From Schlesneria paludicola DSM 18645 (GTDB lineage Bacteria; Planctomycetota; Planctomycetia; Planctomycetales; Planctomycetaceae), in assembly GCA_945876035.1 (NCBI GenBank), contig CAMCMU010000019.1, forward strand, positions 1 through 64,000: 64,000 bases of DNA. The letters run 5' to 3'. This document shows, piece by piece, positions 30,711 through 64,000 of the stretch. The stretch's first letter is position 1. The number at the start of each line of letters is the position of its first letter. The notes under the pieces were generated by a model. It made no database searches. It had not been told where the DNA came from and saw only the letters and a program-made list of their open reading frames with translations. The position numbers and the translations under genes are program-made.

Positions 30711-30990
30711 AATTTCGTCTCCCCGTATTCCGCTGTCAATAGGAAGAGGGATGTTTGTGGTCAGCCCATTCGGCCGGCTGCCATAACTTTAAAGCAGGGT
30801 CTTTAATCGACAGCAAACAGGAATCTGTTGAAACGTGAGACAGTGAAAGTCTCCCATTTTTTTGCGGGGTAGTGTGTGCTGGCGAGCGCGCGCCTCTGGC
30901 GATACAATGTCTCAGCGTTCGTGGGAAAATGCCGGTCCGCAAATTCTCCACGTTCAACCCACCGGAAAAAGAGGGCTTTTAGGAACGACG

Positions 30991-31428
30991 ATGGCTCGCA
31001 AATCACCAAGTCGACTGGAATTAAGAAAACAAGTTGAAGCAGTCGCAGCAAAGGACGAATCGGCGGCGAAGGTAAAGAAGCCCCGAAAGGTGGCCGCACC
31101 ACGCGTCAAAAAGACAAAAGAAAAGACGCAGATCCGAAAACGTCTGGTCTGGGTTGTCTATAGTGGGAGCATGAAAGAGGAAGGGCGTTTCGCCTACGGT
31201 GATCGCGCAGCCGCCGAGGAAAAAATCGAACAGCTGAAGCTGAAATCTAAAAAAATGTATTTCATTCAGCCGCTCAAAGAGATCATTGGCGAGGATGGTA
31301 CTGCTATTCCTCTGACCCCGATCAGCATCGATCTTGACGACGAGCCGGTCAAGGTTAAGAAGAAAGCTGCCAAAAGCGACGACGATGATGACGAGGACGC
31401 AAACGCGGACGATGATGACGATGAATGA
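30991..31428 (+). CDS. Small protein with basic N-terminus and acidic tail
   Basis: 145 residues from ATG 30991, preceded by AGGAA; the frame extends upstream to 30862 without support. Three parts: Lys/Arg-rich residues 1-50 (KVKKPRKVAAPRVKKTKEK), a folded core of about 60 residues (LVWVVYSGSMKEEGRFAYGD, then AAEEKIEQLKLKSKKMYFIQ), and a C-terminal tract of nearly pure Asp/Glu. The basic arm suggests nucleic-acid contact and the acid tail charge-mimicry; both are inferences. No family recognised. Confidence 0.65.
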   Translation: MARKSPSRLELRKQVEAVAAKDESAAKVKKPRKVAAPRVKKTKEKTQIRKRLVWVVYSGSMKEEGRFAYGDRAAAEEKIEQLKLKSKKMYFIQPLKEIIGEDGTAIPLTPISIDLDDEPVKVKKKAAKSDDDDDEDANADDDDDE

Positions 31429-31669: not shown

Positions 31670-33450
31670 TTAAAATCGATTTCGAATGGATGAAATCGAT
31701 TTCAAATATGTATCAACTTTGGCTTGCTCTCTGGAGAACACACGGACCTGTTCTTCGATGTCTGGGAAAAGGCTTTCACCGATTGTGAGTTTGGCTAATT
31801 CTTCAGCTAACGATTCAACCCGTTGTCGCAGACCTCGTCGCAATCGACGGTCAAAGGACATAACCAGTGTTCCCGCGGAAAGTACGAGGATGATCGCAGC
31901 GGGAATGTAAAACGTCGTGTCCAGATACGGACGATCAAAAATGAATGTGTCATAAAAAAAGTTTTTGCCGACACGATAGAGCAGAAACAAGGGAAGGACG
32001 GCGAACACGATCTCATAGTCGAATCTCGCCAACCAATGCGAGTTTCGCATTGTTAATTGCAGTATGAGTTCATCAATTCGGAGTGCAGCATCGGACAGAA
32101 ACTCGCCTTGAAGACTGGTCTCTGCTTGACGAAGCCGCTCGAGTGAGATGTCGCTGGACTCCGGTCGGTGCGGGTGAGCATTCCGGACATGTGCTGAAAT
32201 AACGATCTCTCGTTCACGAAGTTCTACATCAGTAAGACTCAGCAATGCGATCTCGTTGAATCGTTGATCCGATGCGCGTTGCGACTGATTTGATGCCAGC
32301 CGGCGCGATCCGTGGACCATTCCGACGAGTGCCACTTGGGCGGTTGTATGGGAACTCATCAGTGACAACGAGGCGAGCAGAGTTGATTGGCTGTGCCACA
32401 ATCGCAACACGAAGGCGAAGGGGCTATATCCCCAGAGTTGGGTGACCTGACCAAGCATCCGCTGCTCCCACAGTCCTCGGCTGACCAACAATTCGTCACG
32501 CAATCGGATCGCCATTCGAGCGGTCGCGCGTCGTCGTTGGTCGATCAATGCCCGTTGAAGTCCGGCTACGAGAGGTGCTTGTTCGAGGAATGACTTTCTG
32601 GAGTGATCGAGGACTTCATGTGCCAATCCCAGCAGGTTGCATTGTCGAATTCGCAGCCGTTAAGCGGCGGACAGTTCTCGTTGCAAAAGATCGATCAGCC
32701 GTGCAAGATCATCCGTGGGTCGCACACCGGAGTTTTGTTCCTCCATCGCCCGCTTCGAGTCCACGAAAAACAGGTCCACGACGTGAAACTTGAGATTCCG
32801 CTGCCTCCGCAAGTCGTCACGAATATCCTCATCAGAATCAGAATCGGAATGGGACTGAACAAAAACCATTCGACAGCCGCAGGCAGCCTGTAGCAACTCG
32901 TCGCCTACGCGGGAGGAACGATATTTTGTTGAGTGCTGACGTACAACAGGACATCACATACCGGCAGCAATTGATGCGGTTTTGCCAGATTGCTGCCGGC
33001 GGTTTCGGATTCGCTGGTGTCAGGATCCGGACAGTCAATCAGGACACGGTCGCTAGCAAGGGAGTATCAATACGGACGACCTGTAGTTCCGAGCCCCATC
33101 TTTCCCGTCCGCCCATGTTGTCCCCTGTTCCAGGGCTTTGCGTCTTGGGGAATGGCCTCGGTAAACCGAGTGCGGTGAGATTTGTGTGCGGATGAGCAAC
33201 GACGATGGGCATTGTCGTTGTCGGACGCCAACACGCTTTTTCCGACTCCTGTTCCTCCAAACGCCGCAACGACCAGAGGCGTTTCCACTCGTGCTTGCAT
33301 TGGTTCAAGTCGTTGGACCAATTGGCGAACGATCTGTTTTTCTTGGCGGACAGGTTCCCAATCTGTCCGCTCCATCGACCAGTGTGACAATTGCTGAACA
33401 CGCTCATCGACGCTCGTCAACAGTTCAAGGTGTGTCAGCTCAGTGGTCAT
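31670..33450 (-). pseudogene. Second of two tandem dynamin-like/P-loop GTPase genes, broken
   Basis: The protein can be followed from ATG 33450 across several frames. The first segment carries helix VDERVQQLSHWSMERTDWEP and P-loop AAFGGTGVGKS (near 33258-33235). A deletion and shift near 33230 leads to RPTTTMPIVVAHPHTNLTAL; a shift near 33055 to DRVLIDCPDPDTSES (switch II-type motif) and CDVLLYVSTQQ; a shift near 32921 to RMVFVQSHSDSDSDEDIRDD and LARLIDLLQRELSAA. An in-frame TAA follows at 32660-32662, after which the same frame runs on as RLRIRQCNLLGLAHEVLDHS to 31670, with helical segments and two hydrophobic stretches (LFLLYRVGKNFFY; FYIPAAIILVLSAGTLVM). The 957-base tail alone is open from 32626. 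At least four lesions: a pseudogene. Confidence 0.8.
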
Positions 33451-34187
33451 GACTTGCTTGTTTTCCTTTCCTCCAACATCGCTTGAGTTCTGCGACTGTT
33501 TCCGCGACTGCAGCGAACTCCTTTGACGAGCGGATGTTCGCACCGGCTTTCAATTCCAGAACTACGTCGCCCAGCAAATGCGTCATCAATTGATTGACGA
33601 GCCATATTTCGCGTTCCATCTTAAATTTGTCGTGAAGTCGCAAAAGCCGCGTTCTTGGCTTGGCCAAGAACGCCACTCGCAACGTCCACGACGAGTTCAC
33701 CTCCAACGGTTGTTACCGCCGCACCGGTGGCATCGAACGCAATATGAGTCAGTGATTGCTACCCAGGGTCGCAATTCAAATCCGGGAAACATTTTTTTAA
33801 GCCGTGTTGCTCATCAAAGTGACTCGAAATGAGGCAGACGGGATGCTTGGTTCCCGATGCGAGGGGACTACTCGCACTGGCTCGAAAACCGGCGATGTGA
33901 TTAAACAGCACGCTCTTTCCGATGTTCGTACCGCCCATTACTGCGACGATCAGGTGGGGATTGTCTTCCAGTTGCGGAATCAGTTTGCGAGTCAGCAGTT
34001 CGAACCATGAGCGACCGGCGAGTGGTTCCAAGGTCCATGGTTTGGCAATGCACTCCAGACGTGTCAGCGAGTCTCTTAACTGAAGAACGAGTTTCAAGAC
34101 GTGGGAACTCTGATCCGAATTGTCCTCCACGAGCGACAGAGGACTTTCCGGCGAGCGGAAATCGGCGGAGGTTGACCCGCGTGTCAC
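33440..34187 (-). pseudogene. First of two tandem P-loop GTPase genes, broken and internally deleted
   Basis: From about 34187 the frame reads a helical lead-in, then LEDNPHLIVAVMGGTNIGKS with an intact P-loop and VLFNHIAGFRASASSPLASG, up to a stop at 33759. The C-terminal part survives in another frame (33706-33440: LRVAFLAKPRTRLLRLHDKF, then LMTHLLGDVVLELKAGANIR). The central switch and base-recognition region of a normal GTPase is missing, so there is a deletion as well as a frame change. Its end (TGA 33440-33442) overlaps the start of the second GTPase gene by 11 bases, showing that the two were once a translationally coupled pair. Confidence 0.78.
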
Positions 34188-51314: not shown

Positions 51315-53006
51315 TCAGTGATTAAAAATGAATTCGTTTGAGTTCAGCAATGCCCAAAACACGTCTTGAAATACCGTTCGTTGGTCTGAGGCCCCCTTCA
51401 GGCAGAGCTGGATTTTTTTGAGTTCGATTTTAGTCGGTGGACGCCCCAATACGGTCAGAAACAGTCGTTTTGTTTTTTGAAGATCGTTCCCTTTTTGAGA
51501 GAGCAGCTCGAACAGATGGCTTCCCTCTTGCAGACGGCATGCTTCGTTGACCAATTCGCCGTTCATCATCATCAGCGCCTGAGGTATCGTTCCATCAAAG
51601 GAGTTTGACTCCTCACCATCGTCAGTACCAAATTCACGAATAAATTGTTGAAGCCATTTCTGGCGTTGTTGTTCCGAGTTTTCCCAACCGGTTCGTGTGG
51701 ATCGATGCGCGTTTGTGGCAACAATTAGTGAGTCGTAAAGTTGTTCGGCCGTCATCGCTTTGACAGACGGGTGCGAAAACAACGCAGGCTCCCCAGCGGC
51801 AGGGTTGTCTTGTTCATTTTTCTTCGTCCGTGAACTGGTCAGATGATAGGCCTCCGTATTTGTGATCCAACGGATCAGTCGCCGACAGTCATAGCCGCTG
51901 GTGACGAATTCCGTGGCAAGTCGCTCAGCCAATTCGGGATTTGAGGGGGGGTTGTGAATCCCCCAGTCATCGATTGGATGAGTAAATCCATATCCAAAAA
52001 AATGGCACCACATGCGATTCACGAAAGCCACGGCGACCAAAGGTTTCTGACCAGCAATCATCAACTTGGCCAATTCTTTACGTCGTTCGATGGAATCGGC
52101 CGGATCGACTTCAATGCCAAAATAGTTCGGGTAGGCGACCTGCATCAGCCCGTTTCGCTTCTCGAAGTAAACCGGTCCTGCGTAGTCTCGCTCCACGATC
52201 TCGGAGAAGTCCTCGTCCATACGACCGGTCGCTGGATTGTATTTCCGATGATCAATCTTGGCCGTCTGCTTGAAAAAACTGTTGAACTGCCAAAATTGAT
52301 CCTGCTTGAACTTGTTGAAGGGATGGTCGTGACACTGAGTGCACTGCACTTGCATGCCGAGGAACAGACGCGTTGTTTTGGCCGTCATTTGGACGCCGTC
52401 ATCCTGATCCTGCATTTGGGCAAGCAGGAAGTTAACGGCTCCACTGTGTTCATAGTGACCCTCCGCCGCGACGAGGTCAAAGACAACCTCGTTCCACGGG
52501 CGATTCTTGCGAAATGCATCGCGGAAAAATTTCTGCATTCCGCCGCGACTGACTCGACGAGGCGTCTTCTGGCCAATACAGAGATTGGACCAAATCGTGG
52601 TCCAGTGACGCACGTACGCGGGATCCTCTAGTAGCCGGTCAATGAGCTTTGATCGCTTGAGTTTGTCCTTGTCGGCAAGGAATGTTTCCACATCGTCAAG
52701 AGCCGGAATATGCCCATTGATGTCCAGAGTGACTCGTCTCAACCATTCGGCGTCATCGGCGACGGGAGAGGGTTCAACGTTATTGTCCGTCCATCCTTTC
52801 CGAATCAAGTCGTTAATTTCTTGAACCATCGGATCCGGTGTCGACACACGATCGACCGAGGTCGCCACCAGAGAGGACTCGCGACTGCTGGCCGCAAATG
52901 GTGCGAGGCACGATCCCAGCAGAATTAACAGAACCGCGCTGCTGGAGTGGAAGCGTCTTTCCTGTGAGGGCTTGCTTCGACAAATTTCCTGACGAAATCG
53001 GATCAT
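51315..53006 (-). CDS. DUF1549/DUF1553 family exported protein
   Basis: 563 residues from ATG 53006 (open frame to 53096). A membrane signal (SSSAVLLILLGSCLAPFAAS) is followed by DUF1549 (INDLIRKGWTDNNVEPSPVA, RRVTLDINGHIPALDDVETF, and the cytochrome-like CTQCHDHPFNKFKQDQFW) and then DUF1553 (FVNRMWCHFFGYGFTHPIDD, NPELAERLATEF, RRLIRWITNTEAYHLTS, ALLNSNEFIFNH). No cytochrome c head domain is present at the N-terminus. Usually paired with DUF1501, as here. Confidence 0.93.
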   Translation of the reverse strand: MIRFRQEICRSKPSQERRFHSSSAVLLILLGSCLAPFAASSRESSLVATSVDRVSTPDPMVQEINDLIRKGWTDNNVEPSPVADDAEWLRRVTLDINGHIPALDDVETFLADKDKLKRSKLIDRLLEDPAYVRHWTTIWSNLCIGQKTPRRVSRGGMQKFFRDAFRKNRPWNEVVFDLVAAEGHYEHSGAVNFLLAQMQDQDDGVQMTAKTTRLFLGMQVQCTQCHDHPFNKFKQDQFWQFNSFFKQTAKIDHRKYNPATGRMDEDFSEIVERDYAGPVYFEKRNGLMQVAYPNYFGIEVDPADSIERRKELAKLMIAGQKPLVAVAFVNRMWCHFFGYGFTHPIDDWGIHNPPSNPELAERLATEFVTSGYDCRRLIRWITNTEAYHLTSSRTKKNEQDNPAAGEPALFSHPSVKAMTAEQLYDSLIVATNAHRSTRTGWENSEQQRQKWLQQFIREFGTDDGEESNSFDGTIPQALMMMNGELVNEACRLQEGSHLFELLSQKGNDLQKTKRLFLTVLGRPPTKIELKKIQLCLKGASDQRTVFQDVFWALLNSNEFIFNH

Positions 53007-53411
53007 CAAACCGTCGTCCTTCCCATCATCTGTTCGCCGCATGGCGGACATCACATCAACAGCAAAATTCAGGGGACACGGAGTCCATCGCTGCAAATTG
53101 TATCAGAAAAAAGACGCGTCTCCAAAACCGTATGTGGGATCGATTCTGCCAACCGACTTTGGTTCCCTTGTGCGGCCCCAATGACACGTTATCCGGAGCC
53201 CACCCAGCAGGCACCGATTGACCGGCTGTGAATGCCCCTCCGCAAAATTCACATGTCCGCACAATTCTATCTGTGGAACATCTCATTTGAGAGACGTCTT
53301 TGCCTGATCCTTGTTCGCGTTGTAAGATGTGCCTTGGTTTTTTCTGTTGTCAAACGTTCGGCTGATCAAACTGTTTACAAACCGAGTTTATCTTTCACAG
53401 GATGTGTATCA

Positions 53412-62455: not shown

Positions 62456-62967
62456 ACTGTCGCTCCTTCAGATCGTGGATGAGACGCAGAATTCACCGCC
62501 TGACTCCAGTTATTTTCAAACGGTCAACGGACAAAAATCACGTTTCACGTGAAACGGCGGAGTTTCGGAGACGGCGGATACTTGAGGGGTATGCGGGGGA
62601 TTGAGTTTTGGAGATTCGAGACAAATTTTCAAGAGATTCGTTCTGGAGCTTTTCCAGACCAAACAAATATCCGCAGGGGAACTGAACGGAGCGGTTGAAG
62701 GGTGCGGAGGTCCTTTCACATGTCGATCGAGTGGGCCTCGTCAATGGGCTTGACCGATTGCCGCTCGGTGAAGCGCAAACGTTTTTTTGGGGCCTGCAGG
62801 AAATATCATTTCGATGCGATTCTGGAAATCCGCAAGAAAATTGTACGAAAGTTGCGAACTCATGCCACTAACTATCGTAGTCGGTGCATGAGCGGATTGC
62901 ATTCCCGCCTTCGCCCGCATCCAAAAAACGACCTTCAGTGGCCGACACGAGGTCTTGGAGAACTCCC
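62456..62967. other. Divergent intergenic stretch containing the parS-like site
   Basis: About 510 bases between the leftward oxidoreductase operon and the rightward gene at 62968. Apart from the palindrome at 62541-62556, short open frames only; no supported gene. Confidence 0.6.
62541..62556. other. parS-like centromere site (ParB-binding palindrome)
   Basis: CGTTTCACGTGAAACG is a perfect 16-bp palindrome. Its inner 14 bases GTTTCACGTGAAAC equal the core of the general bacterial parS consensus (TGTTTCACGTGAAACA); only the outermost pair differs (C..G for T..A). A given 14-mer is expected about 0.0002 times in 64 kb. It lies in an intergenic region, 85 bases upstream of the oxidoreductase operon. 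By known biology ParB loads at parS near the replication origin to segregate chromosomes. Confidence 0.75.
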
Positions 62968-64000
62968 ATGATGAGACTGACGTTACGAACCTTGCTCGCT
63001 TATCTCGATGACGTGCTTGAGCCGTCGCAGGCAAAATTGATGGGCCAGAAGATTCAGGACAGCCCGGTGGCGGGAGTGCTTGTCAGTCGCATCCGCGAAG
63101 TGATGCGCCGTCGTCGGTTGTCCGCTCCTCATGTCAGCGGTGCCCAAATCGGGATTGACCCCAATATTGTTGCTCAGTATTTGGACAATTCGCTTCCACC
63201 GGATCAGGTAGCAAATGTCGAACGGGTGATTCTGGCATCAGATGAATTGCTGGCGGAGGCTGGAGCGTGCCATCAAATTTTGTCCTTGGTGATTGGAGAA
63301 CCATTAGAGATTTCCTGTAATAGCCGAGAGCGTCTCCACGCGCTCGGGCCGGTGGAGTCCGCCAATCGGCTTCGACTGGAAGGCGACTCAATCAATCAAA
63401 AGTTGGAGTCGACCGAAGTCGGTGTCATGGCAGCTGCAGATTTGGCAATCCGAGTCCAGAATCGAACGCGTGATCCACGGCCGCTGATCATGCCGGTCGA
63501 GGCAGATTTGTCCGACGAGTTGCCAGCGTATCTTCGCCCCAAGCCGTGGGCTCAGCGAGTCATGCCAGTCGCCGTTGTCGCGATCATTCTTCCCATTATC
63601 GTTGGTTTGTTTATCTCGGATCCCACTTTTAGAACCGGACTGTATCAAGCAAATTTCGAACTCGGGAAATCACGTAAGACGGTGGCACCGGAGGCAAGAA
63701 CTCCGCAGAGTGATCTGGATCCCGCGAGCCCTGATCTGATTGCAGACTCGGAATCAGAATCGAACGCGAATTCTTCCCTGCGAACGGTTGTTGGCAACTC
63801 TCCCGCCCAAGATCTGGCCGGTCTTGAAAAGACCACTTTGCCCCACGCGCCCCCCCCAAAAAACGAGACTGTATCAAATTCGGAATCGCCGCCCAGTCAA
63901 AGCAATCCGAGTGCTCGTCCTCAGGTCGTGGAGAGCCTGTCGCAAGAGCCCGTACCCGCTCTCCCCGACGCACCTCCACCGTTCCCAGAGTCCCCTGCTG
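62968..64000 (+). CDS. Membrane-anchored regulatory-type protein, partial
   Basis: The frame starts at ATG 62968 (or 62971) and is open to the window end, 344 codons visible. Residues 1-100 are helical and soluble (RLTLRTLLAYLDDVLEPSQA, then DPNIVAQYLDNSLPPDQVAN), a pattern like anti-sigma-factor or zinc-finger-type N-termini in planctomycetes but without cysteine ligands. One membrane helix lies at about residues 200-216 (VMPVAVVAIILPIIVGLFIS). The rest is Ser/Pro/Glu-rich and extended, probably periplasmic. Function unknown; a cytoplasmic sensor/anti-sigma arrangement is inference. Confidence 0.7.
   Translation, partial: MMRLTLRTLLAYLDDVLEPSQAKLMGQKIQDSPVAGVLVSRIREVMRRRRLSAPHVSGAQIGIDPNIVAQYLDNSLPPDQVANVERVILASDELLAEAGACHQILSLVIGEPLEISCNSRERLHALGPVESANRLRLEGDSINQKLESTEVGVMAAADLAIRVQNRTRDPRPLIMPVEADLSDELPAYLRPKPWAQRVMPVAVVAIILPIIVGLFISDPTFRTGLYQANFELGKSRKTVAPEARTPQSDLDPASPDLIADSESESNANSSLRTVVGNSPAQDLAGLEKTTLPHAPPPKNETVSNSESPPSQSNPSARPQVVESLSQEPVPALPDAPPPFPESPA

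Follow-up and report, generated by a model that had tools for sequence, protein, structure and literature searches.

Among the membrane GTPases with which the present locus may be compared, mitofusin has, close to its C-terminus, a membrane hairpin and then a returning helix, and its G3 motif reads DSPG. The IniA and LeoA/LeoBC proteins belong to other phyla and settings, and planctomycetes are bacteria with elaborate inner membranes that divide without FtsZ. The bacterial dynamins usually occur in tandem, according to two reports (PMC6104087, PMC4159319); the latter lists Nostoc BDLP1 in tandem with BDLP2, and the genes of IniA and of LeoA/LeoBC in the same tandem arrangement as the two genes described below. 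The C. jejuni proteins DLP1 and DLP2 form a 2:2 tetramer, the assembly of which triggers GTPase activity and lipid binding, as stated in PMC6104087.

The window (the whole stretch of DNA analysed here, 64,000 nucleotides of contig C19) contains at 31,670-34,187, on the minus strand, the remnants of two overlapping large-GTPase genes, the upstream gene A and the downstream gene B, recognised by three-frame reading and by tblastn with intact congener proteins. We consider it likely that an ancient two-gene unit of the Planctomycetota is present here as a decaying copy, inactivated probably not long ago, and that the unit encodes the paralogous dynamin-like GTPases A and B of the BDLP/mitofusin type.

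Layout and lesions of the decayed locus

The nearest congener, G009, provided the reference proteins (locus L002), an intact A of 655 aa and an intact B of 647 aa. Against intact congener proteins the remnants were found by tblastn at E values of 1.4e-44 (A) and 1.1e-165 (B), far beyond chance, with every piece on the minus strand. The N-terminal part of gene A (33,759-34,187; 69-73% identical to G009 A) contains the P-loop GGTNIGKS (33,912-33,935), residues 23-125 of the reference corresponding to 34,091-33,783 with 73% identity, and ends at an in-frame TAG (33,759-33,761) placed at the junction of a deletion that removed about 430 codons. Past this loss the reading continues in the frame of the N-terminal part (33,654-33,758; 74% identical to residues 557-591), and after one frame change the C-terminal part follows in another frame up to a TGA (33,440-33,676), its stretch 33,667-33,476 being 46-47% identical to residues 587-650.

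The end of A and the start of B overlap by 11 bases (33,440-33,450). Gene B is preserved over most of its length, in four frame segments with three frame changes, and has lost about 13 residues behind the P-loop. Its first segment (33,223-33,450; 63% identical to G009 B residues 1-76) comprises the N-terminal helices and the P-loop GGTGVGKS (33,235-33,258). The switch I piece RPTTTMPIVVAHPHTNLTALGLP stands in a shifted frame (33,159-33,227) and is 70% identical to residues 90-112 of B from G012; the RPTTTMPIVVAHP piece begins at 33,227, after the loss of the 13 or so residues and a frame change, and the frame changes again after the piece. The G3 piece DCPDPDTSES (32,923-33,060, with DCPDPD at 33,019-33,036), also in a shifted frame, is 76% identical to G009 B residues 174-219, and the remaining G domain with the helical stalk (31,670-32,932; 61-63% identical to G009 B) is interrupted by a TAA at 32,660-32,662 and runs to the frame stop at 31,670. 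Two hydrophobic stretches flanking GKNFFYD (31,850-32,023, limits approximate) would make a likely membrane hairpin, judging from the sequence and from the hydropathy of homologues. In the alignment, VQSHSDSDSDE of the B remnant occupies the place of VQTHADLDEDI in the intact relatives.

Neither gene is now able to make a complete protein. The earlier note on this DNA had described two coupled P-loop GTPase genes in decay, overlapping by 11 bases, with a deletion in the first and a deletion, at least three frame changes and a TAA in the second, all of which was borne out by the three-frame reading and tblastn, while the TAG and the frame change of gene A had been missed.

With the full-length proteins as queries, tblastn detected no second copy of A or B in the assembly. 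On contig C32, 47 residues matched the tail of B (E 1.7e-4 with the 318-aa query); this candidate was rejected, since the match was absent with full-length B and the fetched stretch was negative against A and B. The other Dynamin_N matches of the assembly are an HflX-like and an Era-like frame, so named by reading their sequences.

Adjoining the decayed pair, the plus strand of the window carries at 30,862-31,428 an ORF of 188 aa with a long Asp/Glu-rich tail and no Pfam match at 0.001. The intact B gene of G009 (5053-6993 of L002) contains an in-frame insert of about 50 residues, with repeat-like peptide, after residue ~114, where the remaining sequences of the B alignment A3 carry no more than a few residues.

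Family, fold and G3 motif of the two GTPases

The Pfam matches of A and B are confined to the G domain and belong to MMR_HSR1 and Dynamin_N. Dynamin_N was matched at E<=0.01 by 33/33 B, over the cut-off in the three with a score given, and by 23/29 A, where two of the given scores were 22.9 and 19.9 bits against a cut-off of 27 and one exceeded it (G009, 27.8 summed with neighbours). The G1 lysine and the switch-I threonine are invariant in alignments A3 and A4 (33 B and 29 A, respectively), and the features of a dynamin G domain (P-loop, switch-I Thr, Dynamin_N) are all present in B and partly in A. As judged by sequence, A is a paralogue of B over the G domain (HHalign 98.6%). By hydropathy, 32/33 B have a hydrophobic stretch beginning at about residue 503-536, while the first half of the pair, from about 466-488, passes the threshold in 12/33, and B likely carries a membrane hairpin; A has a weak stretch from residue 483-537 in 15/29.

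The AlphaFold model of B, computed for the G012 protein from 4 alignment rows (pLDDT 67, pTM 0.44, stalk residues ~351-441 under 50), comprises two N-terminal helices, the G domain and long C-terminal stalk helices. Its best fold matches are MFN1 (Z 24.1 over 304 residues at 3.1 A) and Fzo1 (22.5), followed by EHD2 (17.9), IniA (17.7), BDLP (16.6) and Era (15.1), IniA and BDLP being among several rows of the comparison with an rmsd of at least 9 A. The Foldseek list is headed by IniA, the mitofusins, BDLP and the CjDLP pair, at TM-scores to the dynamin-like proteins that are low (0.20-0.37 by query length, <=0.55 by MFN1 length). In profile searches of the PDB with a diverse B profile (19 rows), BDLP1 came first (3.2e-9), followed by Der (1.6e-8), CjDLP1 (1.4e-5) and MFN1 (2.6e-5). 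For A, modelling from 3 alignment rows gave no usable structure (pLDDT 39), and a helical neck or trunk around the G domain is seen for the B model only, part of its stalk having a pLDDT under 50. As modelled, the fold of B is mitofusin/Fzo1/BDLP-like. We therefore speak of "dynamin-like" proteins and of no strict superfamily members, since the canonical G3 is absent and the stalk is modelled for B only. The earlier proposal of a dynamin-like, membrane-type GTPase pair is upheld, and the fold match of B to mitofusin/Fzo1 (Z 24.1-22.2) lies well above that to Era.

The "ribosome-type" alternative of the same proposal fares worse. According to it, A and B would be Era/Der-type (ribosome-associated) GTPases with long helical tails and no dynamin-like pair, a reading that draws on the MMR_HSR1 scores above cut-off for both proteins, over the G domain only, and on the A profile, which among the PDB entries matches Der and Era best, within the P-loop region. 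Membership of Era or Der was not found with the NCBIfam models, which reach <=20.6 bits against cut-offs of >=116; moreover, the match of the B fold to MFN1/Fzo1 (Z 22-24) extends over about 300 residues including stalk helices, whereas that to Era (Z 15) is limited to the G domain. The B profile places BDLP1 ahead of a close Der, and Dynamin_N is matched by every B of the alignment. Thus, we regard an Era/Der identity as unlikely, and the dynamin-like pair is the reading kept below.

The G3 glycine normally contacts the gamma-phosphate. In the alignments G3 is D-x-P-D in 33/33 B and 29/29 A and is thus not the canonical DxxG. The same D-x-P-D was seen in 56/56 further ORFs placed by profile, 52 from other families and four from the own family (L171, L172), where the aligning profiles themselves carry DxPD and recruitment may slightly favour it; the P-loop was found in these ORFs wherever its region aligned. 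An apparent absence of the P-loop in many other-family A, together with two PG-type G3 motifs, turned out on profile alignment to be faults of the regular expressions. As controls, E. coli RdcA has DTPG, and two other GTPases of the own genome have DTPG and DTVG. Because the glycine that normally contacts the gamma-phosphate is replaced, an altered GTP cycle in A and B is likely, and DxPD in both partners poses a clean biochemical question. The motifs of the remnant, presented earlier as unusual, are instead signatures of the family, with G2 RPTT in B and G3 DxPD in both proteins.

Genuineness and age of the decay

One locus of 2.5 kb carries, besides the deletion of about 430 codons, four frame changes and two premature stops, a combination for which scattered read errors are an unlikely source. 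The mean ORF coverage was 0.82 both in the own genome and in the single-contig congener G003 (10 stretches each), and 0.56 at the locus; since the own coverage equals that of the finished congener, the decay looks local rather than an effect of sequencing quality. Genome-wide decay was rejected on the same ground, the own coverage being no lower, while other single pseudogenes may be present.

The age of the inactivation was approached by a three-point comparison, in which dN on the own branch relative to that on the G009 branch was 2.82 for B and 2.53 for the A N-terminal piece, while two intact genes gave 3.85 and 1.57. The surviving pieces have, therefore, no clear excess of amino-acid change over the intact genes, which suggests that the loss of function was probably recent on the time scale of the genus. 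At sites invariant in the other congeners, the B remnant was changed at 22/131 and G009 at 7/138; the same count for the intact genes gave 33/296 vs 5/301 and 10/281 vs 5/286. Relaxed selection on the B remnant was dropped as an explanation because the intact controls display a similar excess in the own lineage, which points to a lineage that is simply fast-evolving. The own branch exceeds the G009 branch in length for all four genes compared. The genome has 4.7 Mb, compared with 6.3-9.0 Mb in 14 congeners, and this small size suggests gene loss; many genes may have been lost in this fast-evolving lineage.

The same dN values bear on the idea that the cell still produces and uses a truncated B from the 3' part (318 aa, with the stalk and the membrane hairpin), in favour of which speak the frame open over 318 codons with a possible TTG start and an own-branch ratio that is not clearly raised relative to the intact genes. 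However, a recent inactivation predicts a like pattern, the A N-terminal piece behaves likewise, the fragment is without a P-loop, and among the relatives no stand-alone form occurs, the frames being at least 604 aa except one at a contig end. We consider such a use quite improbable. Although the genome is an assembly of 102 contigs and one genome per species was sampled, hence a single strain, it is very improbable that the cell has two intact genes and that the lesions arose as an artefact of read errors or collapsed assembly, in view of the density of the lesions, the ORF coverage equal to that of G003, the completeness of 96.85%, and two further genes in the window, at 1 kb and 17 kb from the locus, that are open and align with congeners at 375/394 and 509/593 positions. 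Local and probably recent inactivation of the pair is the reading retained.

Elsewhere in the window, on the minus strand, an ORF of 496 aa at 40,439-41,926 matches glycosyl hydrolase family 8 over residues 69-163 only and has an unusual codon-position GC (GC1 0.43), being possibly another damaged or divergent gene; the 593-aa protein encoded at 51,315-53,096 has 83 matches in the own genome and represents a very large paralogous family; and four short ORFs (85-116 aa) stand in a row on one strand at 62,741-63,979.

Distribution, history and comparison with known systems

Intact A and B were searched for in 58 other genomes, 36 from the same family, including 14 of the own genus, and 22 from outside it, the 318-aa 3' part of B serving as the B query. 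B was present in 34/36 of the other family genomes, the two without it being 89% and 78% complete, and in 2/22 of those outside, both of f2. In these 36 genomes the matched B stretches have no stop at all. At a completeness of 90% or more, B was found in 30/30 family genomes and A in 28/30, counting three with a partial A match (G014, G025, G034); G026 gave no A match and G031 a weak one only. The intact adjacent pairs that had been suggested as a check do exist: of the 36 genomes in which B occurs (34 of the family and two of f2), 17 have A directly upstream of B on one strand, 16 have it on another contig or more than 1 Mb from B, and the search for A gave no match in the remaining 3. The spacing between A and B ranges from a 4-base overlap to 366 bases (24 loci; start codons assigned by rule). 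Neighbour clustering revealed no neighbour shared widely across genera; the groups comprised at most 7 loci, mostly from within the genus, and no function could therefore be read from gene context.

Seven of the congeners (G001-G003, G005-G008) retain both A and B, although apart. There, a gene of 491-496 aa is the next one downstream of A in 5/7, and one other gene family (804-840 aa, one member cut by a contig end) stands next upstream of B in 6/7.

The phylum was sampled evenly with 149 genomes, the own one included and mostly the best 8 candidates per genome being scored; B was matched at 1e-10 in at least 27/149 and A in at least 26/149; of the 28 other genomes that gave any match, 17 have two such genes adjacent on one strand. 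A tree was built from 74 G domains of 37 A-then-B tandem pairs, out of 44 adjacent pairs, from 17 planctomycete families. It takes 12/17 of the f1 and f2 pairs (L002, L004, L043, L057 and L064 were left out) and omits L171 and L172 as near copies; the G domains were cut out by an expression demanding D.PD, a step in which no pair was lost. A single branch of the tree parts the upstream from the downstream partners, with 1 label change compared with 25.1 after shuffling and 0/500 shuffles as low, the separating branch itself being poorly supported (48/69; one change in 48% of the bootstrap trees). The long branches of L100 and L167 (both partners) and of the upstream partner of L175 are flagged as unsure. 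This split by a single branch suggests that the pair goes back probably to one ancient duplication, with the gene order kept since then, and the pair is old and widespread in planctomycetes.

By analogy with C. jejuni DLP1/2, A and B are best read as a heteromeric membrane-tethering or membrane-remodelling pair that would form a hetero-oligomer on the inner membrane. B would be anchored in the membrane by the predicted hairpin and A might dock via its weakly hydrophobic, paddle-like segment, while GTP-dependent dimerisation of the G domains and bending of the stalk would tether or remodel the inner membrane; in the own lineage the unit has probably been lost from use. We put forward as a tentative suggestion, rather doubtful in its full extent, that an ancestral, vertically kept mitofusin-like heteromer, with Gly replaced by Asp in both G3 motifs and an altered, partner-dependent GTPase cycle, may shape or mend inner membranes or join in the FtsZ-free budding, the own lineage then being a natural loss mutant. 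Judging from the broken copy, this lineage can probably do without the pair; that it would be non-essential in at least one lineage argues against its being the general replacement for FtsZ. The words "dynamin" and "GTPase" are absent from the main text of the P. limnophila essential-gene paper (PMC10632474). The A/B pair, present in almost every genome sampled from the own family, is a concrete candidate for membrane remodelling in planctomycetes.

Of the known systems, mitofusin 1 and Fzo1 are the best fold matches of B, which is also likened to mitofusin in the putative hairpin near the C-terminus and the returning helix; these are eukaryotic organelle proteins, and the likeness lies in the fold. 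E. coli RdcA (b4109), which we take to be CrfC/YjdA, is, like A and B, a large dynamin-like GTPase, and rdcB overlaps the end of rdcA; B weakly matches the NCBIfam CrfC model, but the DTPG of RdcA differs from the DxPD of A and B. Mycobacterial IniA is the top Foldseek match of the B model, and PADLOC, run on 4 proteins, returned weak LeoA/LeoBC matches (E 3.3e-5 to 0.023) over short P-loop or G3 stretches, which do not establish a defence role for the pair; no close sequence relation of A or B to IniA or LeoA/LeoBC was seen in these comparisons. Nostoc BDLP1 (PDB 2j68/2j69; PMC2862293), the best PDB sequence match of the B profile, has a paddle where B would have a hydrophobic hairpin, and only short stretches align by sequence. 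The C. jejuni DLP1/DLP2 pair (PDB 5owv/5oxf) resembles A/B in that two dynamin-like genes are adjacent in one operon (PMC6104087), homologous genes standing side by side in both cases, and its chains are among the fold matches of B, with CjDLP1 also found by the profile; unlike this pair, A and B of the planctomycetes have DxPD in G3, and B is likely to bear a membrane hairpin in its C-terminal part.

The earlier note had supposed an undescribed two-component system of planctomycetes. This stands for the family, no description of which was found in the titles and abstract openings of the open-licence literature or in passages of PMC4164004, but not for the paired bacterial dynamin system as such, which is already well described, as PMC6104087 and PMC4159319 make clear. 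Thus, the pairing and the fold are of known kinds, and what is new here in comparison with the described systems is the phylum-wide family, the DxPD in both partners and the natural loss in one lineage.
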